Notes under the pieces: model-generated
What the model was told of the DNA's origin: nothing
The model's database searches: none
Seen by the model: only the letters and a program-made list of their open reading frames with translations
Program-made: the position numbers and the translations under genes
Assembly (NCBI RefSeq): GCF_019649055.1
Contig: NW_026570307.1
Coordinates: 248,001 to 312,000, forward strand
DNA: 64,000 nt
Source: Paramacrobiotus metropolitanus
Taxonomy: Eukaryota > Tardigrada > Eutardigrada > Parachela > Macrobiotidae
Direction: 5' to 3'
In this document: piece by piece, positions 9,046 through 57,816 of the stretch
Position numbering within the stretch: position 1 is the stretch's first letter
Layout: every line of letters begins with the position of its first letter

Positions 9046-9065
9046 ATGTTGTGGTACGTTGCCGG
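9046..9065 (+). pseudogene. First 20 nt of a host signal-peptide exon, split by the LTR element
   Basis: ATG at 9046 opens a frame (MLWYVAG) cut after 20 nt by the LTR element. The same frame resumes at 33338, directly after the second CCGG copy, and continues for 52 codons to TGA at 33495-33497. The joined N-terminus has a long hydrophobic stretch typical of a secretory signal peptide. It lies upstream of the astacin-like exons at 33981-35976 and is most simply their first exon. Confidence 0.55.
9062..9065. repeat. Target-site duplication, left copy (CCGG)
   Basis: CCGG directly precedes the 5' LTR and recurs at 33334-33337 directly after the 3' LTR. A 4-bp duplication is within the Ty3/gypsy range. 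Confidence 0.85.
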
Positions 9066-9402
9066 TGTGAGCGGGGGTTCACTAGCGTTCACGTCCGCGA
9101 CGCTGCGCCAGCTGGATTACGTGTCTGTGTTGTGTCTCGCTCTGATTGGCTAGTGGGCGCGGCTTAGCACGTGCTGCACAGTGTTACACACTGTTGAATT
9201 GGCTCTAGGTTTTGCGATCGAGCTGCGCCGATCACTTGTTGATTATCTGGTCTCCAGACTTTTCAATATTAAAAAGTCAGCGATTTACGGTGCGACGTTT
9301 GTGTTTCCGCATAGCTCGCGATCCAGATCGTATCGCTCGCTTCCACAGGATAGATTCTGTTTCTGTCTCTGTCTCTGGATCCATTCTGGATCTAGCATTA
9401 GA
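9066..9402 (+). repeat. 5' LTR (337 bp)
   Basis: Begins TGTGAGCGGGGG and ends CTAGCATTAGA, matching 32997-33333 at all but one position. It begins with TG but does not end with CA. A CCAAT box in reverse (ATTGG, 9145-9149) and a TATTAAAA stretch near 9267 are candidate U3 promoter elements. No AATAAA is seen. Confidence 0.95.
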
Positions 9403-9413
9403 TGGTAGCAGAG
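9403..9413 (+). promoter_or_regulatory. Primer binding site, initiator tRNA-Met type
   Basis: TGGTAGCAGAG starts at the first base after the 5' LTR and equals the complement of the 3' end of animal initiator tRNA-Met (ending CTCTGCTACCA, from memory). Plant copia-type sites read TGGTATCAGAG instead. Complementarity stops after 11 bases. It would prime minus-strand DNA synthesis. Confidence 0.75.
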
Positions 9414-9581
9414 CCGACAGCGGTTCTCTGATTGATTTAATTTGATTTGTCAGGCATATTTGGCCTGTTACTCAACGTGTTATCCGCGACCAGCAAGGCG
9501 CAGGTCTGTCACACAGCAAAGTGCAACACCACAAGCGGTGCAAGTTCCTCAACTGACGTGGATTACCAGCTTTGGTTTTCG

Positions 9582-9732
9582 GTACAGTGTCTTCAGCGAA
9601 GACCTGTGCTGTTTCCTCAGCTGTGAAAGAGTTCAAGAGTTCAGTCGGCAGTGTTCCTCGGTACGGAGTCTTCAGCGAAGACCCGTACTGGTGTCATTGC
9701 TACTCGGCAAGGCTTCAGCGAAGCCTAAGCCG
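9582..9732 (+). ncRNA. Three covarying AGC-loop hairpins in the leader
   Basis: Hairpin 1: stem 9589-9594 GTCTTC, loop AGC, 9598-9603 GAAGAC, with outer pairing 9582-9587 to 9604-9609. Hairpin 2: 9668-9673 and 9677-9682, same inner stem and loop, with a perfect outer stem GTACGG (9661) and CCGTAC (9683). Hairpin 3: GGCTTC (9711), AGC, GAAGCC (9720), outer CGGC (9705) and GCCG (9729). The loop and inner YTTC-AGC-GAAG are constant, while paired positions change together. A packaging, dimerisation or translation element is a guess. Confidence 0.6.
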
Positions 9733-10298
9733 TGGGCCACAAGAGGCGAAGCGCCGAAAGGGGCGCACGGGAAAAGACAGATTAGACTCCTCCAAACTGG
9801 TTGTAGAGCACTACTGTTGCTACGGCACAGCCGGCACAGTACTAGACTGATAGCGCGAGGCACGCTACGGAACAGCGGCGACGCGGGAGCGGAGTTGGAA
9901 GAAGAATCTGGATCATTTGGATCATTTTTCCCGAGGAACGGACGAACGTGGAACGGACGGACGGTTAACAGGTAGAAAACCGTTAATAATCACGGGATTG
10001 GTTAGACGGTAAAATCGTCAATTTTCATTGGTCCGTACTGAGCTGAGCATAGACGTAGGCGGAGTTTTGCACACGGCGCGCATGTCTCACCGTTGACCGT
10101 GACGTCAGACAGATATAGATTTTTAGAGGAGCAACGTGATTGGTCAGTTATCTGAGCTGTGATTGGTCGAGATTCGAACTGAATAATTTGAGCTAGCCGA
10201 CCAATAGGAAAGAGGTAAACAACCCGAATGGGGATTTTCCGTTAAACTTGAGCGGTAATGGGAAATTCGATTTGAGATGAGATAATTGAGACAGAAAG

Positions 10299-10728
10299 TG
10301 ACCTTTTGAGTTTAGACAAAGGAAAAGTGACCTTTGATCAAAATTGAGCTGAAAAGTGACCTTTAATAGAATTGAGCTGGAAATTGACCTTTAACTCGAA
10401 TTGAGCTGGAAAGTGACCTTTGAACAGAAATTGAGTCGAAAAGTGACCTTTACCAAAAAGTTGGAATCGACCGAATTGACTTAGTTGAGTGACCTTTATG
10501 ATCTGAAAGTGATCAACGTGACCTTTATCGAAGTTGAAATTGGGTTGTAATAGTACAACGATATTAGCAGCAGTAGGATCTCATTCGTAAACGTGTTTTA
10601 AACTGTAAAAGCGGATTCGAAGTTTTGTCTGAAAAGTGACCTTTAGGGCAAATCTCTCGAAGTTTTTATCGAAAAAGTGACCTTTAAACGGAACTTAGCC
10701 GAAATTTTTCAATCAAAAAGTGACCTTT
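10299..10728 (+). repeat. Array of 11 TGACCTTT motifs, about 29-bp spacing
   Basis: Copies start at 10299, 10328, 10357, 10385, 10414, 10444, 10490, 10519, 10637, 10678 and 10721. Seven of the first eight are spaced 28-30 bp apart within degenerate units resembling GAATTGAGCTGAAAAG plus the motif. TGACCTTT is the complement of AAAGGTCA, which contains the nuclear-receptor half-site AGGTCA. Confidence 0.85.
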
Positions 10729-10803
10729 AGGACAATTGAATAAACCATACAATAACGTGTGTGTGAGAACAATTGGCAGGAGCGTCCAAGTTATCCGATC
10801 AAC

Positions 10804-13800
10804 ATGGACAAAGACAACATGGAACCAACATCCAACAGCAGCCAGGGAAGCAGGAGCTCCCGAGGATCACAGCAAAGCGCAGTTGATCCTTATAAAAAGG
10901 AATACAAGTCGCTCGCACGTCCAGTCGGACATGACAGACAGACCCGAGCGGCTGTGACCTTTGCAAGGAAGGACAGCAAAGGCAGCGACAGCACATACCA
11001 AGTGGCGCTTGGGGCTATACAGAACGAAGAGAGCTCCAGCGGAGATGGAAAGCAAACCCCCGCGTCTGTGGCGGGAGGTAAACCGATGAACCAGACAAAG
11101 GTCACTGGGGAGGATGGAACCACAGAAAAGGGAGCGGAAGCAATTGGGGCATCACAGTCGGATGCTCCCACAGCCGGAATGAATGAGCAGGATAAAAATG
11201 CGAACCTGACTCAAGTGGAAATGGAAAAGACAAAGGCTACCGAAGAGGAATTGGCTGAGCTTGGATTGAGTGACCTTTCGCTGAATGACAAAGCGGCAGA
11301 CGATGACCTTTGGGCAACTCCAATGGTCTCAGATGAGTCCAATGAATCATACTTCACGGACGATGAAACGACCATGAATATGTCATTCCAATCCGCAATG
11401 AGACAAGCTGACCGTGCTGAAGGGATGACACCTTTCAAAGAGATACCGGAGCACCTTATTGAACGGACAACAACAGGAAAGGTCATCAATGTACGACCAC
11501 CGTCACCGAACAGTCCCACGTCAACTCTGAGGAGACGTGTGAGTGAATTGGAAAAGGAACTTGAAAATAACGAACGTCACGCGGACAAGCGGAAACAGGA
11601 ATACCGGGAAAGACTGATGACCCTTGAAACCCGCCTGTTCGATCTGGAGCAGCAACAGGGTGACCTTCAAAGTGCCGCCGACGGTTGGAAAGTGAAATAT
11701 GAAAGACAGAAGGAATTGGCTGACGAATACTTGAAAATGGCAGATGACAGAGAAATGGAAGGTCATCTTGCAGTCAGTGACCTCAACGAGAGCATGTCAG
11801 AGGATTCAGCAGAAAGGTTACGGCACTTAGCCGAATTGAATGACGAATGTGACTTATTGAAACAAAAGGTCACTGAAGCGGAGGCTAAGAGAGACGAATA
11901 CGCGGGCAAACTCGTTGATGCGACTCAACGGTTGCTGGCAAACACTAACGAGGTGTTCAAGCTGAGAAACGAATTGAAGCTGCGAGACGAGAGTATCGGA
12001 ACCCTTCAGAAGGAATCGCAGGATCATCAAAGAAGAGCCGACGATGCCGTCAAAGTGGCTAAGGACTTGAGAGACCTTACAGCCACCGAAGGCGCACGGT
12101 TGAACAAGGAGATAAAACAGGTGATGGAGGAGAACAAGGCGTTGAAGGAAGATAACAAAAAGGTCACGGAGGAAATTAAGGAGCTGAAAGAAGCGGCAAA
12201 GACGATCGCCGAACAAGGCATGAGGTGGGAGCATGAGGCACACCTCTTGGACGTAAAGGTCACGGCGCTCGAACTGAAAGACAAAGAGTGGCAACAATCA
12301 GCCCACCAGCAGACACAGGAGATCATCAAGCTCAACACGGAGCTGATTGATATGACCCAAACGGTAATGACAGGGGAGGACGAGCTCACCCAGACGAAGA
12401 ATCAGCTGAAGGCAGCAGCCGAAGAATATACGAAACTGGAAAGAGATGTGACCCAGTTGGTGGAACACATAAAAAAAGTGGAGAATGACACTGAAAAGGT
12501 CATTCAGGAAAAGACTTTCCAACTCCATCAACACATGTTAAAGGTCAAGGAGGAGAATCAGAACTTGAAAACTGAGAAAGAAGAATTCCAGCTGAAAGTC
12601 AGACGCCTCGAGGATGAAAATAAGGCGCTCAACATCTCAAACAAACATAAAGACGAACAGCTCCTGCAATATGGAGTTCGAACCGCAATAGTGGAATCAC
12701 CGCCGCCCAGTTACAGTAAAGCACATGAAACGGGCGCGGGCAAAAGCTACCACTTTGAGATGCCGCTGCGAACTGGTACCGGCAGAGGAAGTGTCAAAAA
12801 CGAAAAGGATGGTGAAAAGGTCAAAGATGACAAAGAGCCACCATCAGGAGGCTATCCGCACACGAGTCACGGCGATCCCTCGCATATCGAAACGAACGTG
12901 TACATCGACGAAGGCCGACGGGACAGACCCTCCAGCCGTCAAGAGCGCCCACGGAAGTCCCGTTACGGAAAGGCGAAACGAAACCAAAATGACGATGAAA
13001 ATAGCGAAGAGGAGGATGACCCGACAGCAGAATCGACAGCGGCGCAATTGACAAAGGCACTCAACTCGATGGCTCGGAAAACGACGTTAGTGACCTTTGA
13101 CGGAAGTCGCGATGCAGTCAATGGCTGGACACAACTGGTCCGAGACACTCAGCGAACTTATCAACTTACGGACGACCATGTCCTGATTGAAATAGCTAGC
13201 GCGGTGAAAGGACCAGCAAAAACTTGGTTCGAAGGCGAGAGGGAAATCGCACTCCAGGAAGAGATGGAGTATACGATAACAGAATGGATGACCAAATTCA
13301 AGGATGAATATGGCGACCGTGATGAAGAAGTCCTTGGCTTACGAGAAGCCATGGCAAGGAAATTCGACCTTGGAAAAGAATCACTTGACCAATTTTATCA
13401 AGCGATCATGAAATACAAGGCAAAAAGAATCATTACTGAGAAGCAAGCAGTCGGCTTCCTTATCGAAGGATGCAGAATCGACAGTGACCTTTATAAGGCA
13501 CTGCGTACACAGCAGTGCAGAACGCCAACCGAAATTAAAGATTTCTTCCGACATTGGTCAGCTGGAGAAGAAAAGTACAAAGCACCGAAAGGTCAACGCA
13601 ACCAGGACTATGTCACAATTCGCACAGGACAAGTTGAAAATGTGCCACAACAAAGGGTCGCGGCAGCACCAGTCCAGCAGCTGGTTGAATACCGAAGGGA
13701 GGCCCCGGTGCAAGAGGTCACCAAGGAAGTGACCTTTATCGACAGCCAGACGGGACAGCCACTTACATATGCGATGGTTGCTGCGATACAGGCGGAGGCT

Positions 13801-14601
13801 CAAGTGAGACCGGCTCGGAATGTCGCACCACCGGCACCACAGAATGTGGCCCCTTTGAATGTGGGGTTACCGCAGCAAGGAGTGGGCAACGGAAACTTCG
13901 GTGGAAACGGATATGGAAATGGAAACTGGAATGGAGGTCAAGGGAACTTCCAAAACCAAGGTCAAGGCAACTTTCAACCAAACAGAGGAAACCAGAATAA
14001 CTTCCAGCAGAATCAGGGGTCACGAACGGAATTCAAGTTTCAAATGATTGATGGATGGGTCGCAAACGGTGTGCAGATGTGCCAATACTGTATGTATGGC
14101 AATCATCAGACCCAGGGATGCAAGTTCGCGAATACGCCGCCGGATCAGAACCCGAACTTGTTCGCCTTCAGAGAGTGGCAACGGCTGCGCAATTCGGGCG
14201 GCTGGCGACAGGCGGTGGCAAATGGATATGACCTGATTGCGCAGTGGTACCAGGCGAAAGCGAACTTTCAAAATCAGAATGGAAACGGAAATTACGGAAA
14301 TGGGAACGGAAATGGCGGCCAAGGTGGTGGCAATCGTGGTGGCTACCGTGGCGGCTTCAGAGGAAGAAACAGAGGCTTTGGCCGCGGAAATTGGAACGGC
14401 GGCAACCGAAACGGCGGAAATGGAGGTGGCCAAGGAAACTACCAACAGGGTGGTGGCCAAAATAATGGTGGCGGCCAGAATAACGGAGGCGGACAAAATT
14501 ATGTCCCGGTAAATAATGGCGGACAAGGAAATGTACAAGGAAATGTGCAAGGCGCGCAACAAGGTGGAGCGCCGGTTCAGGGAAACGGGCAAGATCAGTA
14601 G
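10804..14601 (+). CDS. Gag polyprotein
   Basis: 1265 residues from ATG 10804. The frame stays open a little upstream, but without an earlier ATG. The N-terminal ~240 residues are polar and disordered. Residues ~240-620 form a long coiled coil. Residues ~760-930 resemble a retrotransposon Gag capsid domain (VTFDGSRDAVNGWTQL, then KGPAKTWFEG and LGKESLDQFYQAIMKYK). A zinc knuckle near 1092-1106 has exact CX2CX4HX4C spacing (CQYCMYGNHQTQGC). Flanking Gly/Asn-rich tracts (about 1020-1075 and 1150-1265) include RGG pieces and are likely nucleocapsid. It would form the particle and bind genomic RNA. At 1265 residues it is several times longer than usual Ty3/gypsy Gag, mainly because of the coiled coil. 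The stop TAG lies inside a perfect hairpin. Confidence 0.85.
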   Translation: MDKDNMEPTSNSSQGSRSSRGSQQSAVDPYKKEYKSLARPVGHDRQTRAAVTFARKDSKGSDSTYQVALGAIQNEESSSGDGKQTPASVAGGKPMNQTKVTGEDGTTEKGAEAIGASQSDAPTAGMNEQDKNANLTQVEMEKTKATEEELAELGLSDLSLNDKAADDDLWATPMVSDESNESYFTDDETTMNMSFQSAMRQADRAEGMTPFKEIPEHLIERTTTGKVINVRPPSPNSPTSTLRRRVSELEKELENNERHADKRKQEYRERLMTLETRLFDLEQQQGDLQSAADGWKVKYERQKELADEYLKMADDREMEGHLAVSDLNESMSEDSAERLRHLAELNDECDLLKQKVTEAEAKRDEYAGKLVDATQRLLANTNEVFKLRNELKLRDESIGTLQKESQDHQRRADDAVKVAKDLRDLTATEGARLNKEIKQVMEENKALKEDNKKVTEEIKELKEAAKTIAEQGMRWEHEAHLLDVKVTALELKDKEWQQSAHQQTQEIIKLNTELIDMTQTVMTGEDELTQTKNQLKAAAEEYTKLERDVTQLVEHIKKVENDTEKVIQEKTFQLHQHMLKVKEENQNLKTEKEEFQLKVRRLEDENKALNISNKHKDEQLLQYGVRTAIVESPPPSYSKAHETGAGKSYHFEMPLRTGTGRGSVKNEKDGEKVKDDKEPPSGGYPHTSHGDPSHIETNVYIDEGRRDRPSSRQERPRKSRYGKAKRNQNDDENSEEEDDPTAESTAAQLTKALNSMARKTTLVTFDGSRDAVNGWTQLVRDTQRTYQLTDDHVLIEIASAVKGPAKTWFEGEREIALQEEMEYTITEWMTKFKDEYGDRDEEVLGLREAMARKFDLGKESLDQFYQAIMKYKAKRIITEKQAVGFLIEGCRIDSDLYKALRTQQCRTPTEIKDFFRHWSAGEEKYKAPKGQRNQDYVTIRTGQVENVPQQRVAAAPVQQLVEYRREAPVQEVTKEVTFIDSQTGQPLTYAMVAAIQAEAQVRPARNVAPPAPQNVAPLNVGLPQQGVGNGNFGGNGYGNGNWNGGQGNFQNQGQGNFQPNRGNQNNFQQNQGSRTEFKFQMIDGWVANGVQMCQYCMYGNHQTQGCKFANTPPDQNPNLFAFREWQRLRNSGGWRQAVANGYDLIAQWYQAKANFQNQNGNGNYGNGNGNGGQGGGNRGGYRGGFRGRNRGFGRGNWNGGNRNGGNGGGQGNYQQGGGQNNGGGQNNGGGQNYVPVNNGGQGNVQGNVQGAQQGGAPVQGNGQDQ

Positions 14602-14622
14602 GCGCCGGTGAGCCTACTGATC
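14593..14622 (+). promoter_or_regulatory. Hairpin enclosing the gag stop codon
   Basis: A perfect 11-bp inverted repeat (14593-14603 GATCAGTAGGC and 14612-14622) with an 8-nt loop. The gag TAG (14599-14601) is inside the left arm. It could influence termination, reinitiation or RNA stability ahead of pol. The pol frame is +1 relative to gag and opens just downstream. Confidence 0.6.
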
Positions 14623-14716
14623 GCCCCGACCCGAAACCACCGGATAAAAGGGGAACGGAAGGTCACCACTGCAGAATGGTACTGCAGTGAATGTGACGAA
14701 GGAATCGGCTATATGG

Positions 14717-17700
14717 ATGCCGCCACAGCAAAGCGAAACGGCTAAATGGATGTCGTCATTGCAAAAGGAAATTGAAACGGCTATAAGGATGCCGTCACAG
14801 CAGCAAAACGAACTGGTTATCGGGAAACCGGTACAGATGGATAAAAGGTCACCGCAGAACGGTACTGCGAGTGGAAATTGTCATGACGGTAGCGCGACAC
14901 TGCGAACAGCACAGCAAAAGGAAAGGTCACCGTATTGCAGCGAAAAGGTGTTAGCTGAACGCCGTGCATTACGCAATGCGAAGATTCAACAAGCGATGCT
15001 GAATCAAAAGAAGCCGCAGAATAGCACTACAGAAGAGGATGAAGAAGTGCACCATTCGAAATTCCGAGAGTATATGGAAGAACACGGCATACCGAATCGC
15101 CAGAGGTCACCTTCCGTAGGAAAAGTCCAAGTGAAAGGTCAAGGAGTGAGTGCGAACGCTAAAGGTCACGGTGAAAGCGCCGTGTTAAAAGGTCAAGAAA
15201 TAGACTTGACACTGCGAACAGCGCAGCAGAAGAATAGCGAACCGGCACAGCAGAACTCCGATGACTCCCTTGTGGATGCAGTAACGCTGCAACGGAAGGA
15301 AATATGGCGAAAAGTGGCCTACAGACCGAATGGGAATCACGGAATGTGGATACCCGTAACGCCGAAAGCGAAGCAAAAAGCGGGAATGTCACAAGAAGAT
15401 TACTGGGACATGCGAGAACTGCGAACGCAACATGAGAGAAAACGACTGAAAGAATTGGTTACCGGGATAGAAGTCAAAAGGTCACCGAACATTGCTCCAG
15501 TATTCAATGCAATTGAATACAAGAACGCACAAGCTGACCTGAATAACTCGCGAAACGCTCCGCCGGAAGATAAACCGCTGAATTATGGAAAAAAAGTCCC
15601 CATACAAAAGTTGACAGGCGGCGGATTTGTTATAAAGCGCAATGAAAGGTCACAGGACTTAGCGCAAAATGAACAGAAAGGAGGGTCAAATGAGATGGCG
15701 CAAATACAACAGAGTAGCGCAGCTGAAAGGTCACGGGACTTATCGCAAGCATTACAAAAGGACGCCAATGACAAGTCACCAGCCCGAACAGATGGAATGT
15801 CTTCGCAAAGCGACCCAACGAAAACGAACAATGAAGTATCTGCAAAGGTGATTGAATGGATGACCGAAAAGGGATATGATATGGTAACATATGAAAGGTC
15901 ACCAGACGAGATGAAAGACAACGAAGCAGATGAACTGAAGCGAGCCGACCAAATAACAAATGAAGTAATTGAGAAGCTGCGAGATAAGCGAAATGAAAAC
16001 CGCAAAGAGGAACTGATCCACGAGACGATAAATGAAGTGACTAAAGGTCATGTGGACAGCACAAAAGCAAATTCGCAAGTGCAGAATAACGAAAAGGTCA
16101 CCAGCGACAAAATGGCTGCAGAGAAGCAAGCGGATAAGAAAAAACCGCAGAAATTCTACGATGTCCGAACCGACGTGCCACACAGGATTGACAAGTTGAG
16201 GGAGATACTGAAAGGTCATAGCACTCTGGCGAAAGGACAAGTGCCTCCCGACATGGATCCGGGACCGGTATCTCTAATTCCTGTGAAATGCAAGATACAC
16301 ACATTGAAGATTCAAAACGGAAAATTGCCCAAAAGAATTGAAGCGTACACTCATGAAGTGAAAGTGGGAGACATAAAGGTCAACGCAATGTTGGACACCG
16401 GCGCTGAGACGTCGCTGATCAGCAAACCATTTTGCGAAAAGAATGGACTGCACATGCTCCCATTGCCACCAGACAGATTGGTGAAAATAAACGGAATTAG
16501 TGGAACGTCAGGATTCCTGGTGACGCATTACTGCGTAGCACCAGTGACCTTAAGGAAAAAGACTAGTGAACATTCATTCTACGTCCGACCGAAGTGTGAC
16601 GATGTACAGGTGCTACTGGGATTCGACTTCTTGGAGAAGAAGTTCGTACTAATGGATAATGAAGGCGAAGAAGAGAAAGAAGATGACCCGAAACCGATCG
16701 CCAAAGTTCAAGTCGGAAAGGTCACCGAACTTGTAAAACAGACGCGAAATGTTCAAACGGTCAATAAAACGCTAATCCCAGTACCAGAGGCACCGGGAAA
16801 GGTAAAGGAAACGAGGGCGAAAAAAGAATTGTCAACATTTGAGCAGTTGAAATTGATCCAACAGGAGATTGAAAACACACTAAACCGGACAACGCTGACA
16901 CAAAAGGGAAGAGAAAAGGTCATCCCAGTACCAGAGGCACCGGGAATGACGAGAGTGCAGCAGAACGAGACTAGCCAACGGACAATCCCGGTACCAGAGG
17001 CACCAGAGAAGATAAGTGAAAATGGAAATGTCCAAAAAGTGAACGAGAGGAAAAAGGAGCCGTTTGCGCCAGATACGGATGAGGCGATCATATTTCTCCC
17101 GGACGGGAGAAGTATGATCGCAGATAACTATGAGCAAGGAGCCACAGAAAAAGAATGTGTTGAAAAAGTTATCCCAGTACCAGAGGCACCGGGAACGAAG
17201 GATGAAAGGTCACCAGTTGAGAACTTGGCGTCAGAGCTGGATCCGAAAAACGTCAGCAAGACCTTTTTCGAACCACGATCTGCTACCGAAAATGAAATCG
17301 AAGAAAAAGATTTGCAGAGAGTACCAGAGCGTACCCCGAACTTTTTCGAACCTCGATCTGCTACCGAGAATGACGAAAGGTCACCAGCACTTGGAGAGAT
17401 AGCTGCCACACAGAAAGAAGCGACAGCTGCAGCGAAACAATCGCTTGTACCTAACACAGAGTGGGCAAAGCCTATCCCAGTACCAGAAGCACTGGGAGTA
17501 AAGTCGGCCAAAGTAGGAAAGGATAAAAAGAGTGAAAGGTTACGGATATTGAAACGAATAGCTGAAGAAGAACAGATGTTCGCGAGCGAAATCCGCAACA
17601 AAGCGCTTGAACAGTTGAAAGGTCATCAACTGAACAATGAGACAGAGATTATTGAACTATCCTCCGACGAAGCCAGTATAACAGAAATCGAATGTGAGCA

Positions 17701-23568: not shown

Positions 23569-23692
23569 CCCACATAAACATGAATAAGGGTTCACTTCAT
23601 TAAAAATAGGAGTTGGGAAGCTGTAAAAAGGTCATCATCGTTATGACAGCTAACCATTATTGTTTCATTGTTACAGAAGGTAAGCCCAGTTA
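23569..23692 (+). promoter_or_regulatory. Spacer with splice-acceptor-like site before ORF3
   Basis: TTGTTTCATTGTTACAG ends at 23676, 17 nt before the ORF3 ATG, and fits a 3' splice site. AAG/GTAAGC follows within a few bases, so an acceptor and donor lie nearly back to back. This suggests ORF3 is expressed from a spliced subgenomic RNA, as env is in retroviruses. Confidence 0.4.
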
Positions 23693-26600: not shown

Positions 26601-28597
26601 AAAAGGCAAAACGAGAGACGTCTCGTGAATCGGAAGCATCGGAAGTGAGCCTCCCAAGCACTTCGACGGTTAGTACGAGGTCACATACGGACCCGAAAAC
26701 GACTAGACCCAGAACCGCGGAGCCAGGAAGCCTAGCGGAGGCTCTTGAGAGAGGGAAAAAAGCAAAGAGCGAACCCGCAAAGTTGAAAAAGAAAGGAAAA
26801 GAGGCCATGAAAATTGATGCATTGGCAATGGCCACTTACATCGAACCGGACGGTGACAGTGAACTTGATTACTCGGGCGATGAAGCGGAATTCGAAGATC
26901 CAGACAGTGATAATATGACCACGATTGACGAAATTATTGATGCGTTCAACGGAGCAGAGAAGCATTTTACACGAGTAAGAACCACATCAGTAACGTCAAA
27001 ATTCAGAACGGGTTTAAAGAAATATCTGCGGAAGGACAAGCACCGTAGTTTTACCAAACAGAAGTTCGATGTGGTATTGGAATACGCTCGGAATGCGGGA
27101 AAACTCCTCCAGAAACATCCGAATTTCGCGTATAAGGCTAAACTATTCAGACCGTCAAGCTCGGATAAGTCGCTGACGACTCCCAATGAAGATACCGCAA
27201 TGCGAGTGGAAAGGGCAATCGCGGGAATGACAAGCCCGTTGGGGTCAACGAGTCACCGGATCAGCCAATATATCAACGCTGTTTGGAATGACGGAAAAGG
27301 GTTGATAAAGGAAATCGACACAGCCACTGAACGCGCGTTGCCAAGGATGATAAAACAGAATATCCTGTCCACAACGAACGCACATCAAGGATACCCGATC
27401 CGATATACGAGAGTAGGCCTGATACCGCCGGAAAAACAAACCCGTTGTAATATGTCCGACAGTCAGGAGATGGAAAGAGTGCCATCGAGTGGAGACCCGA
27501 CAACTCCCATACTGAATCGGATCGCGCAGTTAACAGCCGAGGAAGGATCCGTACGGGTTAAACCACAAGTATCGAAAGTACCGAAAAAGAAGGGACCCAT
27601 GGATTCCGAATCAGAGGAGAGTGACGACGACACCTCTGCTGTCCGTGCCTCTGGAACGTCTCTGGAACCGGACACAGAAAATCCTAAAGGTCAAGAGACA
27701 CCAGCAACTGCGACAGACACAGAAGTAATTCAACCGAAGGGTCACGAAACATCAGAAAAACGGGAGAAAGAAAAGGTCATGCTCCCGATGGACAAGGCCT
27801 CGGCAGAAGCAGAGGCAGCCTCCGCGCGACAAGTATATCAGAAATCATTGTTCATCCCACTGAAGGATGCTTACGAGAAAGAACGGTCAAAGTCAGCGGG
27901 AGAACTGGGAGGTCCTGAGACTTTACCACAGGAAGAGAAAACGATCGAACCGAAATCTGCCCAGTCATCATCAGGCTCGTTGGCAAAATTGAAGATAGAT
28001 GAACAGGCGACTGATGCAACGGACTCGGCAAAATCCCCCCAGAAAATGGAAACTAAAGAGGCGACAGATTATTCGCTCGGAGCGCCGTTAGATGTGAATA
28101 ATCGGACATGGAACGAAGTCCAAGCTGCACTCCAGAGTATTCGAGAAAAAGAAATGCTTGGTACCGATCTCAAAAGACAGGTCGCGGTAAACTCGAACGG
28201 AAGATCGTCACTAAATATGACCGAACGAGTCCTGAAACGGGCATATAAGGAAGGAAGACTGGGATGTAAATATAACAAAGATAACAAAGTCATCTACTAT
28301 CTTCCGAAACAGGGCACGGAACGCACGCCCAGACTAAAAATGGAACTGGAGGCTTGGAAAATAGCCGTTACAGATGTGGCTTTGGACGCCATTGGCGGCA
28401 CCAATGGAGCGTCATGGGGTGACCTTTCGAATTTCATGGCCGTCCATTATGAGTTGGGAGAATTGAATATTGAGAACGATAAGGAATGGATAAAGAATGC
28501 CGTAGAAGCATTGGTTGCAGACGAGGTGCTTCATGTCAAACAGGATGGCCGAATTGACTTCAAACCATATCAACCGCCGGCGAAGGAGTCTGAGTGA
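23693..28597 (+). CDS. ORF3, giant accessory protein of unknown function
   Basis: 1634 residues from ATG 23693. The N-terminal ~160 residues are Gly/Pro/Tyr/Gln-rich, followed by a Pro/Arg/Gly segment. A helical region sits near 250-370. Two ~95-residue repeats (about 490-605 and 640-760) each contain an IVD..T element, a helix ending in IP..ER and an LI.MM(K/R)H helix. Next comes a long Lys/Glu-rich acidic-basic tract (~790-1040), then a helical region at ~1080-1240. The C-terminus (~1470-1634) has two compact helical segments ending in short strands that recall winged-helix or linker-histone folds (weak inference). No signal peptide or membrane anchor is seen, so it is not env. The decayed element at 50.9-57.5 kb has a comparable region containing an LLRH-type copy of the repeat helix. 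Confidence 0.85.
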   Translation: MDRLERQNSENSDSESIGNPLKASTPKRMEGEYGYDTSYGEGSTSSAGTAQNEPGQGGYYGGPEYYVYHDPGQQTTYQDTVNWVHHGLPAGTQYSGQMMSAPYQPHPGAYTPPMGPPQVMGPARMLMPPPQQTTPSRFMGHGGFGGMLATQSQRSSPILPPFPESGGLSLLDIGTPRMRTPQQLGAQRFHRNSPQKGGRRGGNRFDSPRPRGVLPSLGPNLEQAGPDGLRATPPGEPTVHDYSPKLPLDMKDDDARLNVIVGDEERLTTADTAAIQDFNRMCRDLYRIHMRVEDEHAFYGRLMSLDAIIEAVHIALKEKTKSITVKRKELAIKIASMKQYHPALTNRKWPPMIEKIQMFLKTIPKETGPSASSAAGPSRASVEAPVEEMSDSALMETKRKIEIELTERAERSRASSIAGSVRGRTSSVTEPSSGTVKSGKRVRSPTTSPKESDKKEQRTKKVTTSKAPIPVGRKSAPPTPPDPEAASVRLPKCRTFTVKYTGTDHNERKVTARIVDKRTNKEIDSYNPLADKSVKTEIGERAKTEVNEALQFIPPEERHNPRVLIQMMKHVVSKVAVEENAWIRIKVGTNDDHLAYTYTVDGKLLTKERIRPKPTADPDPSRRTLDDYESTLKYTDGTSRKMTLTLHYGDGTTDCITAVIVDPITGDPIPYAPWDASEESAEHANRAALEQLWNLIPVSERQDPLIQANTLISMMRHRAEIDEAHFRLTRKTENGAYKTVFYDTKKNPLWEIVTQAPAKETPHLEIQAQDPAQESGAGEMAEASVAGVAGTESTRRPSKQDESEEEEANDDSAEEQADEDDNMAEEDNQPLKVVVKPRKAAKLEEAMNREKVKKGDSLKKQKEEEDKKKKSGDESESKNTRRKKEEKKKKDESSSHDVEILDEPVGEVEERSSAPIIPKKFVIESATSKSKVTEPEPSTSKGKVIAVKQIVPVVISASTTKERREKRTREKAKRETSRESEASEVSLPSTSTVSTRSHTDPKTTRPRTAEPGSLAEALERGKKAKSEPAKLKKKGKEAMKIDALAMATYIEPDGDSELDYSGDEAEFEDPDSDNMTTIDEIIDAFNGAEKHFTRVRTTSVTSKFRTGLKKYLRKDKHRSFTKQKFDVVLEYARNAGKLLQKHPNFAYKAKLFRPSSSDKSLTTPNEDTAMRVERAIAGMTSPLGSTSHRISQYINAVWNDGKGLIKEIDTATERALPRMIKQNILSTTNAHQGYPIRYTRVGLIPPEKQTRCNMSDSQEMERVPSSGDPTTPILNRIAQLTAEEGSVRVKPQVSKVPKKKGPMDSESEESDDDTSAVRASGTSLEPDTENPKGQETPATATDTEVIQPKGHETSEKREKEKVMLPMDKASAEAEAASARQVYQKSLFIPLKDAYEKERSKSAGELGGPETLPQEEKTIEPKSAQSSSGSLAKLKIDEQATDATDSAKSPQKMETKEATDYSLGAPLDVNNRTWNEVQAALQSIREKEMLGTDLKRQVAVNSNGRSSLNMTERVLKRAYKEGRLGCKYNKDNKVIYYLPKQGTERTPRLKMELEAWKIAVTDVALDAIGGTNGASWGDLSNFMAVHYELGELNIENDKEWIKNAVEALVADEVLHVKQDGRIDFKPYQPPAKESE

Positions 28598-28957
28598 ATG
28601 GGATGCGTGTAATGTGCAGCGAGTAATGAACCCTGCATATTACAGAAAAGCATAAAATAGTTAAAAACGAACGAGAAAAGCTTTATGGAAAATTGAAAGT
28701 GAAAAGGTCAACTCGAGAAATAGCGGCGATAAGACTAATAGAAAGGTCACGGTAGTCAGAAAGTGCTGATAACGTGAGAAAGGTCACCACGTTACAGTGA
28801 TAGAAAGGGCAGCAGGAGCTAGGAAAGTCTCAGCTCAGTAGCGGAATAGGCGTAAAAATGATAGAAAAGCCTTGATGATGAATAAGAATGGAAACGATTT
28901 ACGCGGAAAGGTTACTATGATGGAGTGTTTTCTGATTGCAGATTCAAAACGGAGAAA
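28598..28957 (+). other. ORF3-ORF4 spacer with motif copies and a splice acceptor
   Basis: 360 bp. A stem pairs 28608-28617 with about 28635-28644, with one mismatch. Three AAAGGTCA copies lie near 28704, 28742 and 28780; the last is in the loop of an AACGTG...CACGTT hairpin. A consensus acceptor TTTTCTGATTGCAG ends at 28941, 16 nt before the ORF4 ATG. Confidence 0.45.
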
Positions 28958-30400
28958 ATGGCACAGAAAGGTCAAGCCACTCCTAAAAGCGCAGGACCCG
29001 CATCAGAGATAAACAGATCTACGGGCTATAATCCAAAGTGTCCGGACTGTTTACGGAATAACCGAAAAGTTGACAAGAAGTTCCCGTGCTATTCATGCGT
29101 TCATAAGTTAGGAGACCCTAACACTGTTTCACTCGTGGGACTAATGAAAGCCAAACGGGGGAACATGGACGTTTTTCGAAACCTCATTAGCGCGAGGAAT
29201 TACGGCAGCATCCCAGTAGAAGAGCGAATGCTACTCGAGGATCGTTACCGAGAAGCAATTCAGAATAACGAAAGTGGCTGGGACGAGACTTTGGAGCCGT
29301 TGAAATGTCCACAAACGGACGCATACCGGAAGAAGTTTGAGGAAGATCAGGAGAAGATGCGACGGCAACAGTTGGAGGATGAACTCCGGGCAAAGATCAA
29401 CGCGGCGAATCAAAAGGCGAGCGAACAGGCCGCAAGAGAGGCGCTGCCAAATCCGTCGAGTTCAACTGTACCGACAGCCAGCTTCAACGACGACGAAGCC
29501 CAGTTGATACGCCAGTCCCTGATCATCCAGATTGATACGCTGACCAGCGATTTAGCGGCTATGCAACAGGAACTATTTGATGCGCTGTTGCGGGAGAAGT
29601 TGAGACTGCAGAAGAGTTTCGCTCCGGCACCGTACATAAAGAAGGCAGTTGAGGAACGTATGGAGGAGCTGCGTAAATCCCGTCAGAACGAGAGTAATGT
29701 TCTCCAGGCGCTCAGAGGATTCAGACGAGATGACGTGTTTACACGACCTCGTTCGCCCCCGCATAGAGAAAGGTCACGCGGACACTCACGCGAACATGAA
29801 CGGACCTCTGAAAGACGAACCGAAAGGTCACGTGAACACTCCCGGGAAAGGACACGGGATTATCGCAGTGAAAGGTCACGTGAACGTTCTCATGATAGAG
29901 ATTACCGTGGTGGAAGAGGATGGGTGCGCCATGGAAACGAGATAACCGAGACGAGTATTCAGCGCAAAATCGATACGGCAAAGATTTTGGCCGCAACAAG
30001 AGGACGTGAGGAACAACGGCGTGCAGAGACTTACCGCACAGAGCCTGAAAAGAAAGGTCATCAGGTGCCGTTGGAAGTTGGATTCCGTAACCGCAATGTT
30101 AGGATGTCAACACCCGAAAGGTCATGGGACAAAAGACGCGAACATACGCGAAATCGAACGCCAGACCCACAGGATAAACGCTGGCAGGAAAGAGCCAGGT
30201 ATTATGCGGGTTTTGAATCTGGCGCGAGCAAAAGGTCATCGAGCGCAGAAAGGGAAGATTCACCCCCGAAGTATCAGCGGATGGAATCGACAGTCCACGT
30301 AGATCGTGAACGGTGGAAGGGCGCGAAGTGCGGTCGGCGAACGACTTCCCGAAGAAATGTGGTCACAGTGACCCCAACCATCCACATCGACGGGTATTGA
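28958..30400 (+). CDS. ORF4, CxxC zinc-ribbon-like protein with an RS domain
   Basis: 480 residues from ATG 28958; the frame is open further upstream but lies beyond the splice-acceptor-like AG. Two CxxC pairs near residues 25-45 (CPDC and CYSC) suggest a small zinc-binding fold. Residues ~130-260 are Glu/Lys/Gln-rich and likely coiled coil. Residues ~270-330 are an Arg/Ser/Glu/His tract of repeated RSRE/ERSR units, like RS domains of splicing factors; this tract overlaps several AAAGGTCA copies read as ERS. The tail is basic. Role unknown; a nuclear RNA-binding or splicing-control factor is an inference. A diverged copy with CQQC and CAEC is at 50655-50353. ORF5 follows in the +1 frame, which is open across the ORF4 stop. 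Confidence 0.85.
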   Translation: MAQKGQATPKSAGPASEINRSTGYNPKCPDCLRNNRKVDKKFPCYSCVHKLGDPNTVSLVGLMKAKRGNMDVFRNLISARNYGSIPVEERMLLEDRYREAIQNNESGWDETLEPLKCPQTDAYRKKFEEDQEKMRRQQLEDELRAKINAANQKASEQAAREALPNPSSSTVPTASFNDDEAQLIRQSLIIQIDTLTSDLAAMQQELFDALLREKLRLQKSFAPAPYIKKAVEERMEELRKSRQNESNVLQALRGFRRDDVFTRPRSPPHRERSRGHSREHERTSERRTERSREHSRERTRDYRSERSRERSHDRDYRGGRGWVRHGNEITETSIQRKIDTAKILAATRGREEQRRAETYRTEPEKKGHQVPLEVGFRNRNVRMSTPERSWDKRREHTRNRTPDPQDKRWQERARYYAGFESGASKRSSSAEREDSPPKYQRMESTVHVDRERWKGAKCGRRTTSRRNVVTVTPTIHIDGY

Positions 30401-30446
30401 ACCGCCGCACACGAATCGGCGCGAACCGGATCGCGCGCGATACGAT

Positions 30447-31559
30447 ATGCGCGACACCGATGAACAAAAGACGGAAATCTGCCGATATATGGGGATCGAA
30501 GACGATTCGGCGGATGCGAATAAGATCCACACAATTTTGAATCAGTTGCGTCAATTCTTATTCGATTCGGGCTATGCGAAAGAAATTAAAGAGGGAGTCG
30601 AACAAGGGCTTTTTCGTCAACTATACATTCCCCGCGACTCAGCAAGGGATTGTTATCTTCCTATCCGACGAAACGGATTACATAGCCTGTTGGACTTGAA
30701 TCTGTTGGACGTGCCACTGGATACCACTGACCCAGTCGGGATGACACAATTCTATTATAGAGATTATCCCGAACGACAAGAATATGTGGCTCAGTTCGTT
30801 TTACGACACGTGAATCCAGCCTTCAAGTTGCTCGCAGCAAGAGCATCGATCGGATTACAAGTGGATCCTAAAGACCATGCCGCAAGAAGGATGGGGCAAA
30901 AGGTCTTTGCTGCGAGATTGGCTCATTATAAGACACATAACCAGTTGGTGTCCAATACCATGAAGGACGATATCCCACCACTTTTCCGACCTCACGTGGC
31001 GAAATTGGGCGAACCCATGGAACATGTTGGAATAGCCCATACGGCAAGAAAGGCGCTGAAAAAGTGTAAGATACGAATGGAAAAGGGCAATCTTACACAA
31101 CGCCATGCCTCCCAGGTAGAGGAGAGGATTAATAAGATTAAAGACACCATGGGAAGTGACTACGTCGAACCTTTTGACGGAGTTGAAATGTACATCGACG
31201 AATTCCTTGTGAAGAAAAGCGACCGACGCCCAGAACGCGCTCCTAACCAGATAGGACGACGCGGCTTAAGAAACCAGCAACTCCGCGATAACCTCGCTGA
31301 CGTGCAACGGAGATTGGCGGATGACCCTAACAACCGGAGACTCCGGTTGGAGGAGAATGATGCACGCCACCGGGTCGAGGCGGTCAAAAGAAGTCGCCAA
31401 GGGAAAGGTCGCGGTCAGCGAGAAGTTGACCCGGAAAAGGTGATGGTAGTTGGTCCCATGGAACCGATTGACCGGACTTCTGACCAAAACCAACCGAGGA
31501 GTAATAAGAAGCGCCCGCCGAGAGACGGTGAGGAAGACGATTCAAACGAAATGGAATAG
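30447..31559 (+). CDS. ORF5, unknown helical accessory protein
   Basis: 370 residues from ATG 30447. The same frame is open from about 30370, overlapping the end of ORF4, so a frameshift fusion is possible. Landmarks are LNQLRQFLFDSGY near 30-45, LLDLNLLDVPL near 80, a YPERQEYVAQFVLRHVNPAF helix, and FAARLAHYKTHNQL. The last ~130 residues are strongly basic and Arg-rich with an acidic end. No signal peptide or membrane segment. I know no family. The minus-strand pseudogene at 49707-48778 is a clear homologue. The TAG stop lies in a hairpin. Confidence 0.85.
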   Translation: MRDTDEQKTEICRYMGIEDDSADANKIHTILNQLRQFLFDSGYAKEIKEGVEQGLFRQLYIPRDSARDCYLPIRRNGLHSLLDLNLLDVPLDTTDPVGMTQFYYRDYPERQEYVAQFVLRHVNPAFKLLAARASIGLQVDPKDHAARRMGQKVFAARLAHYKTHNQLVSNTMKDDIPPLFRPHVAKLGEPMEHVGIAHTARKALKKCKIRMEKGNLTQRHASQVEERINKIKDTMGSDYVEPFDGVEMYIDEFLVKKSDRRPERAPNQIGRRGLRNQQLRDNLADVQRRLADDPNNRRLRLEENDARHRVEAVKRSRQGKGRGQREVDPEKVMVVGPMEPIDRTSDQNQPRSNKKRPPRDGEEDDSNEME

Positions 31560-31584
31560 TGTTGATCGTTAGGATCACACTATT
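31555..31584 (+). promoter_or_regulatory. Hairpin enclosing the ORF5 stop codon
   Basis: AATAGTGT-T-GATC pairs with GATCACACTATT (31573-31584) around a 5-nt loop, with one bulged base. The ORF5 TAG (31557-31559) is in the left arm, as for gag. Confidence 0.55.
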
Positions 31585-31748
31585 AAAATGACGTCTACGG
31601 CATTTTGTCGGCACGTCACAAAAATGAAAAATGGTGTTGTATATGAGGGCGATATGACTTGTTTACATAAGCTGTATTTGTGTAATTGTTGTTTTCAGCG
31701 TTTATAGCACAGAACCGCCAAGGATAAAGAAATCATGTGGAGCAACGA

Positions 31749-32201
31749 TTGGGGTTGAAATTGATTCGGTCTATAAAGCCGGCCCCAAGGGAGTTGCTAC
31801 GGCAGTTAGCCGGCCCTCCTCCTTAAGCGAGTCAGTGTTATAAATTTGCAAGAGAAACTACGGTAATCAAGCCGGATCTCTTGAATACGAAGTGGGCCAC
31901 AAGCGGCGAAAAAGAGAAAGACAACAGGTGGAAATATTAATGAGGTAAACTCGATGCGGCAGTCAGCCGGTCTCATTAGAGTTGCTACGGTAAACTATGC
32001 CGGCAATCTCTCCGAGCGACCCAGTGTCATAAGTCAACGAGAGAAATAGCGGTAACCAAGCCGGATCTCTCGTACGGAAGCTGGGCCACAAGCGGCGAAC
32101 AAGAGTAAAAGATTTCATGTGGAAGCGTTATGGGGTAAATTTAATGCGGTAGCAAGCCGGCCCCACCAGAGATGCTACGGTAAACTCTGCCGGCACTCTG
32201 G
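31749..32201 (+). ncRNA. Tandem ~190-bp array of covarying hairpins (3' structured RNA)
   Basis: Eight hairpins in three-hairpin units with period ~190 bp (starts 31749, 31939, ~32131). Type a: TTGGGG/CCCCAA, AATGAG/CTCATT, TGGGG/CCCCA. Type b: GGAG/CTCC, AGAG-TTGC/GCAA-CTCT, CCAGAG-TGC/GCA-CTCTGG. Type c: CAAGAGA/TCTCTTG, CGAGAGA/TCTCTCG. All enclose a conserved CGGYA...GCCGG core. Stems differ between units while pairing is kept, which is covariation visible by eye. Location between the last ORF and the 3' LTR suggests a role in RNA export, stability or replication. No known RNA family recognised. Confidence 0.7.
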
Positions 32202-32996
32202 CCGCTCGAGGCATATTGAAGTTGGATGTGCGACGGAAAGGTCAACTTAAAAGTTTTACCAGGGAGGCAAGCAAAGAAGTGCTTGAAGGCCGCAGAAAAA
32301 TCGGCTAAGTTCCTCCATGACCTTTACCGGAGATTTGAAGAGAAGATGGATGACCTTTGGGATCATTATTTCCCAACAGAGTCATCGTATTGGAATCTAA
32401 GTCGCATGACCTTTTGGGACCATTAACCCATAACGAGTCGCACATCTCAACGGATCATCTCAACAAAGGATGACCTTTATCAGGGAGGAAGCGAACTACG
32501 CTTGTCTACATGACGTCCCTCCATGACCCTTATGGATCTCATTTTGAAGTCGTACAATAGATACGCACCTTATTCCAAAGATGAAGCAGTATTCCTAAAG
32601 TCGTACATTGATACGCACCAGATTCTCAAGCGGATTGTGATGAAAGTCGCACTATGGATGCGCGGAATTGCTCAAGCGAGCGGAATGGGCCAAAGTGCGG
32701 AAAACGGTGGACAGGACCTGTGACCTTTACGAGTCAGAAATGGAGGATCCTAGTCTACATTTGATTAATACTTTTATTGATCTTATAACTGTTGATCTGT
32801 TTTTGTATTAGAATTGATATGGAATAGTATTTTAATACAGATCTCTTTATTTCACATTGTGCATTTGGAATTATGTGATTAAATGGATTAAGAGATTTGA
32901 TGTTTTTGAGCACGCACAGACACCGGCGACCGCCGTCTTTTCGTGGATTCGGGAGTATGTTCAGCCTCAACGGAGCTCGGCATCCCCCCAGAGGCA
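32202..32996 (+). other. 3' tail of the LTR element
   Basis: Noncoding. It contains one AAAGGTCA (32238) and TGACCTTT near 32319, 32349, 32470 and 32721, plus two AGGGAGG...CCTCCATGACC blocks (about 32262-32323 and 32484-32527) and a repeated AAGTCGTACA-type segment (32549, 32599). The sequence just before the 3' LTR (CATCCCCCCAGAGGCA) is not a normal polypurine tract. Confidence 0.5.
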
Positions 32997-33333
32997 TGTG
33001 AGCGGGGGTTCACTAGCGTTCACGTCCGCGACGCTACGCCAGCTGGATTACGTGTCTGTGTTGTGTCTCGCTCTGATTGGCTAGTGGGCGCGGCTTAGCA
33101 CGTGCTGCACAGTGTTACACACTGTTGAATTGGCTCTAGGTTTTGCGATCGAGCTGCGCCGATCACTTGTTGATTATCTGGTCTCCAGACTTTTCAATAT
33201 TAAAAAGTCAGCGATTTACGGTGCGACGTTTGTGTTTCCGCATAGCTCGCGATCCAGATCGTATCGCTCGCTTCCACAGGATAGATTCTGTTTCTGTCTC
33301 TGTCTCTGGATCCATTCTGGATCTAGCATTAGA
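32997..33333 (+). repeat. 3' LTR (337 bp)
   Basis: Same sequence as 9066-9402 with a single difference (A at 33036 versus G at 9105). Followed directly by the CCGG duplication. Confidence 0.95.
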
Positions 33334-33337
33334 CCGG
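33334..33337. repeat. Target-site duplication, right copy (CCGG)
   Basis: Matches 9062-9065. Restoring a single CCGG keeps the host reading frame open across the site. Confidence 0.85.
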
Positions 33338-45666: not shown

Positions 45667-46439
45667 AAAGCACGTCTGACTAGAATAGCAAGTGGTTGCT
45701 AAAGGGTTCTTGAGCGTCTGTCAAGGCGTAGAAAGAATGCTGGCGGCAACCACGTGCGTGATGCAGTCCAGACATATCAGCTGTGTGATGCGCTGACTGG
45801 ACTCGATCCAACGCGAGCGTATGAACGCTGATTGGTGCTGCGAGAGAGGGACGAGAGAGCAGTCCACTCAGTGTATGCGCTGCGTACATCCGCTTCAGCG
45901 GATGAGTCAGTGCAGCAGCACACATACGTACAAGTGAGAGAGGCGATATGTGGCATGCAAGTGAGTGCAAGTACGCCCTATGTGGGCGGAGCACACGCGC
46001 AGGCTCATACGCCTGACATGCCTTTGGGCGGGAATCCGAGCCCCTGCGATGGATGCTTAGACTCGGTACCGCACCAGTACCGCACTCTCTGGTTGGACCC
46101 ATATGGGGTCGCCGGTACGCGTCCTCAGGCAGCGGGAGTCCGGTGTCTGGTCGACCGTCCCATCTTCACTTCCGAACCCGTGAGAGGAAGCCACTCACGG
46201 CCGAGAAATCCGGAAGTCGCTCGGGCGTTTCGTTGTACCGGTGATGCATCTGTGGGCTGGCTTCTTGCTTCTGTTGCCATCGGAGAACAATGTGAAAAGA
46301 AAATGTAATGAAAGTTTATGGAGCGCGAAAGAAAAGTATGAAATAAAGTTCCAGTGAGCAAAAGGGGTTACAAAACAGATCTGTTAAAGATATCGAACTA
46401 GAAAAATACAATTCCGTTTGTTAGGAAAGAATGCTAAGA
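45667..46439. other. Spacer with short hairpins
   Basis: No gene supported. Hairpins such as GACCC-ATATG-GGGTC (about 46088-46102) resemble those of the neighbouring element, so its 3' end may extend into this stretch. Confidence 0.3.
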
Positions 46440-49707: not shown

Positions 49708-49739
49708 GTTACGTTTTGACTTATTTGTTAAGTCGACCG

Positions 49740-50655: not shown

Positions 50656-50893
50656 CGTATAAGCTTCCGTACGGTTCTGTCAAAACAAAAGTTAAGCAAA
50701 CCGTTTCTCGGTTGCGTCCTATAGATTTTAGACCCTATAATTACTCGGTCGGGCCAGGATGGTTCTCGAACTGTTCCAAGGCGCCTTTGTGGTCGCCTGT
50801 TCAGGTAAGTCGACTTCTGCTGGTCGATGACGCCTATGTGGTGTCAATGGAGGTAGTCGGTTCTGCAACTCCTCCGACGCATTCTGCGTCTCC

Positions 50894-57475: not shown

Positions 57476-57816
57476 GTTGTTTTCATGGTACGCAATTTGA
57501 CCCAAGTTGGCGTACGTTTCAGATTAAAAATAGCTTCGGATTAAAAGGTGCATGCTTCGGCAATTATATGCCGAGGCCAGAGAGTACTGCATTTCGGCAT
57601 CTTTCCTGGAAACTGGTTTAGATAGGTTGGCTTCCTATTATTTTGTCCATATATTCTTCCTATTATTTATGTAGATAGGTTAAAGACGGATCGAGCTTTG
57701 CAAGCACTTGCCTGTTTTAAATTACTTTTAAATTTAAATTACTTTTTAAATTAAATTTAAATTTTTAATGCTATTTCATTCTTTTTTAGGCCCCTTTGTG
57801 ATGTGCAGGTCGGCTT

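Follow-up and report, generated by a model that had tools for sequence, protein, structure and literature searches.

A 24-kb Ty3/gypsy retrotransposon of the tardigrade Paramacrobiotus metropolitanus carries a dense array of an octamer identical to the NR4A receptor site NBRE

A 64,000-nt stretch of the genome of the tardigrade Paramacrobiotus metropolitanus (169.8-Mb assembly; contig NW_026570307.1), referred to below as the window, contains a single long terminal repeat (LTR) retrotransposon that fills positions 9066-33333 and is densely occupied by one eight-base word, AAAGGTCA (Table 1). As had been noticed in the original prediction, which was made from the letters of the window, the LTRs are equal in length (337 nt each) with one mismatch and no gaps, and are flanked on both sides by the target-site duplication (TSD) CCGG. 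LTRs and a 4-bp TSD were found in all three copies examined, which are of the long form; the other two TSDs are CCAG and AAAC, and the bases that differ between the two LTRs of a copy number 1, 2 and 0. The predicted primer site, TGGTAGCAGAG from 9403 onwards, does not vary among the three copies and is a putative match to initiator Met-tRNA. The sequence ahead of the 3' LTR reads ...CCCCCCAGAGGCA, with no clear polypurine tract. Pfam domains occur in the order PF13650/PF13975, PF00078, PF17917/PF17919, then PF17921 and PF00665, representing a full set of protease (PR), reverse transcriptase (RT), RNase H and integrase (INT), and by this order the element is filed under Ty3/gypsy (Metaviridae). 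The gag candidates SWIRM-assoc_3 and AdenylateSensor fell under their Pfam cut-offs and were dropped, and an Rfam search over the whole element returned nothing. The leader between the 5' LTR and gag is 1.4 kb long. In the 3' non-coding part, two diverged repeats of 94 and 80 nt with CTACGGTAA...GCCGG and GGGCCACAAGCGGCGA cores lie at 31826-32209. With 23.6 kb between 337-bp LTRs, the element is near the record in size, in line with the exceptional size claimed for it.

Table 1. Features of the retrotransposon in the window (ORF, open reading frame; aa, amino acids)
Feature	Position	Strand	Details
Left TSD	9062..9065		CCGG
5' LTR	9066..9402	+	337 nt
Primer binding site	9403..9413	+	TGGTAGCAGAG; same in three copies
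Leader array	10299..10728	+	11 TGACCTTT octamers
gag	10804..14601	+	1265 aa; CCHC knuckle 14080-14121; octamers 9 sense, 6 antisense
PR-RT-RNase H ORF	14717..21265	+	2182 aa; Pfam domains; octamers 26 sense, 4 antisense
PR	16355..16636	+	Pfam
RT	19988..20476	+	Pfam
RNase H	20744..21049	+	Pfam
Integrase ORF	21238..23568	+	776 aa; frame differs; octamers 6 sense, 2 antisense
Integrase H2C2	21808..21984	+	Pfam
Integrase core	22078..22326	+	Pfam
ORF3 (accessory gene 1)	23693..28597	+	1634 aa; octamers 8 sense, 1 antisense
ORF4 (accessory gene 2, predicted first half)	28958..30400	+	480 codons; octamers 7 sense
ORF5 (accessory gene 2, predicted second half)	30447..31559	+	370 codons, other frame; octamers 0
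Octamer field	10955..30238	both	73 octamers from gag start to ORF5 end
3' non-coding region	31560..32996	+	1.4 kb; octamers 5 TGACCTTT, 1 AAAGGTCA
3' LTR	32997..33333	+	337 nt; one difference from 5' LTR
Right TSD	33334..33337		CCGG

The octamer array is a feature that the original prediction missed. The internal region contains 61 copies of AAAGGTCA in the sense direction, where an order-2 Markov model predicts 1.5, and 29 of its antisense form TGACCTTT, where 0.22 are predicted. The six ORFs hold 56 sense and 13 antisense octamers, compared with 4.87 and 0.42 in synonymous-codon shuffles, by which the two words rank first and second in over-representation among all octamers. At positions where the amino acids are compatible with it, the word is realised in 56 of 76 cases in the sense (0.74) and 13 of 17 in the antisense direction (0.76), while 60 permuted octamers gave a median of 0 and a maximum of 0.375 at their compatible positions, the maximum belonging to AAGGTCAA, which overlaps the word itself. 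Since the octamers occupy all three reading frames, in varied surroundings, the word is not a protein motif, and the peptides KGH, RS(P)/ERSP and KV are translations of it. The sense excess inside the ORFs follows from the amino-acid sequence, which allows 76 sense versus 17 antisense positions, and if the word is recognised in double-stranded DNA, both strands should be used equally.

Inside the ORFs lie 69 of the 90 sites; with four more between ORFs they make up the octamer field, with a mean gap of 268 bp. Regular spacing was considered and rejected, the coefficient of variation being 1.01 against a random mean of 0.98. In the leader, 11 TGACCTTT fall within 430 bp, where 200 shuffles averaged 0.055. 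Of the ten gaps between them, six measure 28-30 bp, and a 29-bp tandem repeat lies at 10322-10452, so that part of this array, like a stretch of ORF4, consists of small tandem repeats. The leader and 3' sites are antisense in 16 of 17 cases and the coding sites mostly sense. None of the 24 one-mismatch forms occurs more than five times (0.4-2 expected), and the base at +8 is G in none of the 90 octamers. The window outside the element contains three forward and no reverse octamers.

Other copies of the element were collected by an LTR search, in which the best 40 of 303 candidates were scored and at least 41 matches were obtained, comprising 15 same-strand pairs and 11 singles. The start-to-start distance is 22.2-28.7 kb in ten of the 15 pairs listed and 17.5-17.8 kb in five; an ORF5 match lies inside all ten long pairs (two of the matches being partial) and inside none of the short ones. 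The synonymous distances of ORF4 and ORF5 between the window copy and other copies amount to 0.3-1.5, and since LTR pairs nevertheless differ by 0-2 bases, several old lineages of the family are, judged from these distances, recently mobile. Two pol layouts coexist in the family: the integrase frame differs from the RT-RNase H frame in the window copy, where the two overlap by 28 nt (21238-21265), and in one short copy (L052), and a single continuous frame is found in another (L039).

The original prediction had named copies lacking ORF3-5 as evidence that would speak against it, and in part such copies exist. Three of the five short pairs (L039, L052 and L053) were read in their 3' part; they retain RT and INT, with 83-99% identity in the main matches, and hold ORF3 scraps of 126-138 residues (one more of 45 in L039) and nothing of ORF4 or ORF5, and their aligned pieces are 86-96% identical to L039. 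Because they have a common structure and keep pol and the octamers, they look like a replicating derivative subfamily and are not proof of neutral decay, and the ORF3 scraps indicate that they probably derive from the long form. In about 8 kb each, L039, L052 and L053 have 43, 46 and 48 octamers, respectively (32, 36 and 37 in sense and 11, 10 and 11 in antisense orientation). The 1.45-1.52 kb that separate INT from the 3' part, and that take the place of ORF3-5, account for 21, 26 and 26 of the sense octamers and for a single antisense one in each copy. Loss of genes with retention of sites is the pattern of a cis signal and a trans factor, although the factor need not be encoded by the lost genes.

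A second subfamily in the same host (L047-L051 and L072) resembles the window copy in its RT stretches (89-90% identity) and INT residues 1-572 (82-88%), and is much further from it in the INT tail (47-54%), gag (54-56%), ORF3 (39-41%), ORF4 (43%) and ORF5 (50-56%, also quoted as 53%), which suggests mosaic exchange. Among its near full-length ORF5 matches, 13 of 25 lie in frames of at least 900 codons. A decayed third relative on the minus strand of the window (about 45700-57600) contains an ORF5-like segment (49443-48889, 30% identical, E 1e-15) and an ORF3-like one (52577-52275, E 1e-4), and tblastn at E 0.01 gave no gag or pol match between it and the element.

The octamer, which saturates the window copy without strand preference, is largely fixed across copies of the window's own subfamily. 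The leaders of three other copies have 11, 11 and 9 octamers, and the window's eight sites in ORF3 are unchanged in, on average, 0.77 of seven copies, against 0.26 for other 8-nt windows. At sites where at least half of the copies carry the word, a selection that conditions the count, 226 of 246 instances are exact despite synonymous distances near 1 and variable flanks. Compatible positions are filled at 65 of 94 (sense) and 9 of 17 (antisense) in ORF3 of other copies, and at 35 of 50 and 13 of 14 in short copies. G at +8 is likewise missing from 137 octamers of short copies, 74 of ORF3 copies, 344 at 3' loci and 15 in L070 (0/570 in total), and is found in one of six in subfamily 2. Fifteen octamers fall within 2 kb of a relative with 36% identity in gag (residues 2-374), and a single one within 1.6 kb there in subfamily 2, of which gag residues 1-513 are 56% identical. 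The genome as a whole contains 42,562 octamers versus 15,522 of the reversed word.

The region beyond the integrase had been read as three accessory ORFs, ORF3, ORF4 and ORF5, which add 2484 codons (1634, 480 and 370), each open. The accessory coding capacity stands, but the number of genes is two. A database protein of 912 aa, P0017, aligns to the window in two different frames, with residues 1-449 at 28958-30301 and residues 490-912 at 30375-31556; P0017, P0018 and P0019 represent the intact gene elsewhere (912-913 aa), and 28 of the 53 near full-length ORF5 matches in the window's subfamily lie in a frame of at least 850 codons (25 without a stop inside the match). From this match in two frames and the long frames of other copies, ORF4 and ORF5 are read as halves of one gene, which is frameshifted in the window copy; its ORF4 codons past about 449 are in a register different from that of other copies. 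The description of the element as intact thus does not hold for the whole copy.

A genome search with ORF5 (best 111 of 493 candidates scored) gave at least 113 matches, 88 of them without an internal stop, and one with ORF3 (best 29 of 1344) at least 39, of which 14 span residues 1-1634 and 11 of these are stop-free. The pairwise dN/dS, calculated with our own script by the method of Nei and Gojobori, has a median of 0.070 for ORF5 (435 pairs, 30 loci including those with stops) and 0.093 for ORF4 (430 pairs, 30 loci fetched, again including those with stops). For ORF3 it is 0.108-0.172 (28 pairs of eight copies), a range biased against decayed copies, as the seven other copies were picked stop-free, and 0.046-0.232 in windows of 100 codons. 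The corresponding values are 0.013-0.096 for RT and 0.058-0.086 for INT (six pairs of four copies each). By these ratios ORF3 and ORF4/5 are under purifying selection, nearly as integrase is. Selection on these ORFs had been deduced from their being open in an element of near-zero age, which is no proof by itself; it is the comparison between copies that bears it out.

Pfam gave no match above the curated cut-offs for ORF3, ORF4 or ORF5 (TMEM61, below its cut-off in ORF3, was dropped), and their 19-residue Kyte-Doolittle averages peak at 1.16, 0.81 and 0.81, consistent with the predicted lack of env features. No PDB match was obtained in sequence searches with ORF3 and ORF5. Searches of protein databases with ORF5, ORF3 and an ORF5 profile returned 5, 11 and 13 proteins, none outside P. 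metropolitanus (best 7983 and 7997 candidates scored for the latter two); one of them, P0007, is the window's own. A nematode host was also considered and rejected, the spliced-leader SL1 pattern giving 0 matches. ORF4 has a CxxC-x12-CxxC motif at about 29039-29098 and an RS-rich stretch. Structure modelling, one of the checks proposed in the original prediction, gave poor models and was uninformative. In the ORF3 model a doubled beta-beta-beta-alpha-alpha-beta-beta-beta unit is predicted at about residues 496-754, with low confidence at about 25178-25528 and moderate confidence at about 25574-25954, where alone the block-mean pLDDT is 58-82. The ORF3 C-terminus is weakly linker-histone-like in three of nine copies (Pfam, best E 0.017, under the cut-off); this identity was rejected, as hhalign against host H1 gave a probability of 1.5%. 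The best PDB matches of the C-terminal profile are Arc repressors, which are weak (E 0.02-1).

The octamer is identical to NBRE, the monomer site of NR4A receptors, given as AAAGGTCA in the relevant part of PMC3386274. The host encodes a receptor of this type: among the 16 of 63 zf-C4 matches fetched, an exon in L069 encodes 44 residues whose best PDB match is NGFI-B (1cit, E 3e-21), followed by the RXR group (E 2.8e-16). It may be, at slightly less than an even chance in our judgement, that the element-wide array of AAAGGTCA followed by C, T or A recruits the host NR4A-type receptor and that the accessory proteins act in trans. In this mechanism a monomeric receptor of the NR4A kind would occupy sites along the whole integrated element and keep its 24 kb open and transcribed in the germline or under stress, with the 11-site leader array as the strongest element of the docking array; that the array keeps chromatin open is what we infer from the sequence. 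The accessory proteins would act on nuclear steps, either transcription or the passage of the long unspliced RNA out of the nucleus, and the RS-rich, zinc-ribbon ORF4/5 might suit a role in RNA export or splicing like that of CERV. If they act in trans, short copies could do without the genes while still needing the sites. A more far-reaching proposal, which we regard as somewhat less likely than not, is that the coding sequence has been rewritten, by synonymous and tolerated amino-acid changes, into a near-saturated array of NR4A sites, so that one sequence would serve as proteins and as an open-chromatin domain, while non-autonomous derivatives would drop accessory genes and multiply sites. 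In its radical form, ORF3 or ORF4/5 itself would read the word as an animal counterpart of VANC.

Several observations weigh against recruitment of a host receptor. Arrays of transcription factor sites usually hold degenerate variants and this octamer is all-or-none; NR4A2 matrices have a preference for C, and the bar on G at +8 has no explanation in NBRE as known to us. The octamers run through coding sequence with no clustering at a promoter. Strand neutrality fails at the ORF4-5 loci of 29 other copies, where 171 of 242 sense but 3 of 21 antisense compatible positions are filled, and subfamily 2, in the same host, fills 5 of 46 sense and 0 of 16 antisense positions. In some sets, a pair of arbitrary control octamers fills 0-0.28 of compatible positions, so that saturation has to be judged against a baseline above zero, and the exactness of the word between copies was counted at sites that most copies have. 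(In open frames of the 16 nuclear-receptor loci, the octamer takes 3 of 16 compatible positions.) The flanks of sense sites are more hairpin-forming than shuffles (-2.18 versus -1.41, z -4.8), with 18 of 61 below -3 compared with 8-10 of 61 at random positions, which hints at a role in RNA. As to the accessory proteins, the mean AlphaFold pLDDT is poor (37.5 for ORF3 residues 435-1634 and 46.1 for ORF4/5), and Foldseek with these models found no match at E 0.001.

Instead of a host protein, ORF3, ORF4/5 or Gag may bind the octamer on the element's own copies and lift silencing, as in VANDAL/VANC. We consider such an element-encoded address system unlikely, although it would fit the all-or-none specificity of the word, its absence at this level from subfamily 2, and the behaviour of short copies, which, like non-autonomous partners, retain the sites without the candidate factor genes ORF3-5. 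According to the part of PMC5735166 concerned, VANC21 binds a nine-base motif that is dense in its own elements and has the same orientation within arrays, and the motifs of related families differ; those motifs are, however, mainly non-coding, whereas most octamers here lie inside ORFs. The linker-histone-like hint in ORF3 would supply a DNA-binding domain but fails against host H1, and the octamer equals a known receptor site. The word persists in a lineage whose gag is 36% identical and is lacking in subfamily 2 with 56%; a constant host factor explains the former, and the latter makes the word optional. This pattern places the host receptor array before an element-encoded reader, and both before a signal acting in RNA. 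In the last case, which we think quite improbable, sense AAAGGUCA and antisense UGACCUUU would act through mutual base pairing or through a bound protein in the compaction, circularisation, export or packaging of the 24-kb RNA. The 11 leader and five 3' UGACCUUU sites would indeed be complementary in the RNA to the mostly sense coding sites, the flanks of sense sites form slightly better hairpins than shuffles, and an accessory protein can serve export of genomic RNA, as described for CERV of Cer1 in the part of PMC10309623 concerned. Other words of the family favour hairpin loops: GGAAGGTC of subfamily 2 is found in sense only (13 versus 0 over two copies totalling 36.6 kb, which have some of the sites in common), with 11 of 13 in loops stronger than -3 kcal/mol and a mean of -8.78 versus -2.97 for shuffled flanks, and CACAAAGG of the decayed relative at 45700-57600 has eight sites with a mean of -4.98 versus -2.23, four of them below -3. 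These two words resemble RNA signals with a common AAGG or AAAGG core; as a saturating word of subfamily 2, GGAAGGTC was rejected, since it fills only 8 of 31 compatible positions. For the octamer itself, a hairpin around each site was also rejected, being weak in bulk, and visual inspection of eight groups of aligned sites revealed no compensatory flank changes. Against a signal in RNA also stand the equal realisation of both strands in the window, the 13 antisense octamers inside ORFs, and the sense excess that follows from the allowed positions.

It is very unlikely that the octamer is functionless and was spread by biased mutation, gene conversion or short repeats. One word does dominate, and part of the leader and a stretch of ORF4 are tandem repeats, but the octamers occupy three frames in varied surroundings, the word stays while its flanks vary, subfamily 2 lacks it at this level, and its one-mismatch forms are not enriched alike. 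We give as little credence to ORF3-5 being captured host genes or dispensable passengers, with the short form as the real element. In its favour, five of the 15 LTR pairs lack an ORF5 match and leave no room for ORF3-5; on the other hand, dN/dS is far below 1 along the length of ORF3, an ORF5 relative is present in the same window among the many matches in the genome, no homologue was found outside P. metropolitanus in the database searches, and the short copies hold ORF3 scraps that probably come from the long form.

Among known systems, Burro of planarians and Ogre of plants are similar in being Ty3/gypsy elements that exceed 20 kb (Burro and the largest Ogre) and have unknown extra coding capacity; the part of PMC6431247 concerned gives internal regions of up to 25 kb for Burro and 11-13 kb for Ogre and mentions no octamer array. 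The tardigrade element differs in its short LTRs and in separate extra ORFs past the integrase, and its six ORFs contain none of the Burro domains BIR, ankyrin, BCL2 and MATH (Pfam, E up to 1). The VANDAL/VANC system of Arabidopsis DNA transposons shares a short, dense, subfamily-specific word in cis (PMC5735166, in part), whereas the present case is an animal retrotransposon with sites in coding sequence in every frame and a word shared with the 36%-gag lineage. The insulator of Drosophila gypsy is a leader cluster of roughly a dozen Su(Hw) sites. It is alike in that a Ty3/gypsy element bears sites for a host DNA-binding protein at its 5' end (the 5' LTR in the section of PMC3827471 concerned), but it is one array, and the tardigrade element has a leader array plus 69 sites in ORFs. 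NBRE itself is the identical, monomer-bound octamer, treated in that part of PMC3386274 as single promoter sites. Cer1, a Ty3/gypsy element of Caenorhabditis elegans, is smaller than the tardigrade element. Its CERV offers a likeness as a nuclear-acting accessory protein on genomic RNA (PMC10309623, in part). In the portions of the open-licence PMC literature covered, neither this element nor a retrotransposon with such an octamer was found to be described; a paper on tardigrade transposable elements (PMC11071193) deals, in the part concerned, with two other species.

The window also contains an open frame on the plus strand (6838-7419), 1.6 kb upstream of the insertion, with a weak match to Maelstrom, a protein of the piRNA pathway (E 8e-4, just under the Pfam cut-off). 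A fragment of another retroelement with an RVT_1 reverse transcriptase match (E 4e-16) lies on the minus strand at 41620-42540. Repeats of the CTCTGACT type are found at 34950-35260 and 60482-60877, and also beside the 3' LTR of L039 (7599-7911).

The octamer is a strong constraint on coding DNA that an analysis at the protein level would miss. How large retroelements are transcribed and escape silencing may be approached through this family, which offers a countable cis signal to test in a stress-tolerant animal. As long and short forms exist side by side, with at least 113 ORF5 matches in the genome, the motif, the factor and silencing would be directly testable.

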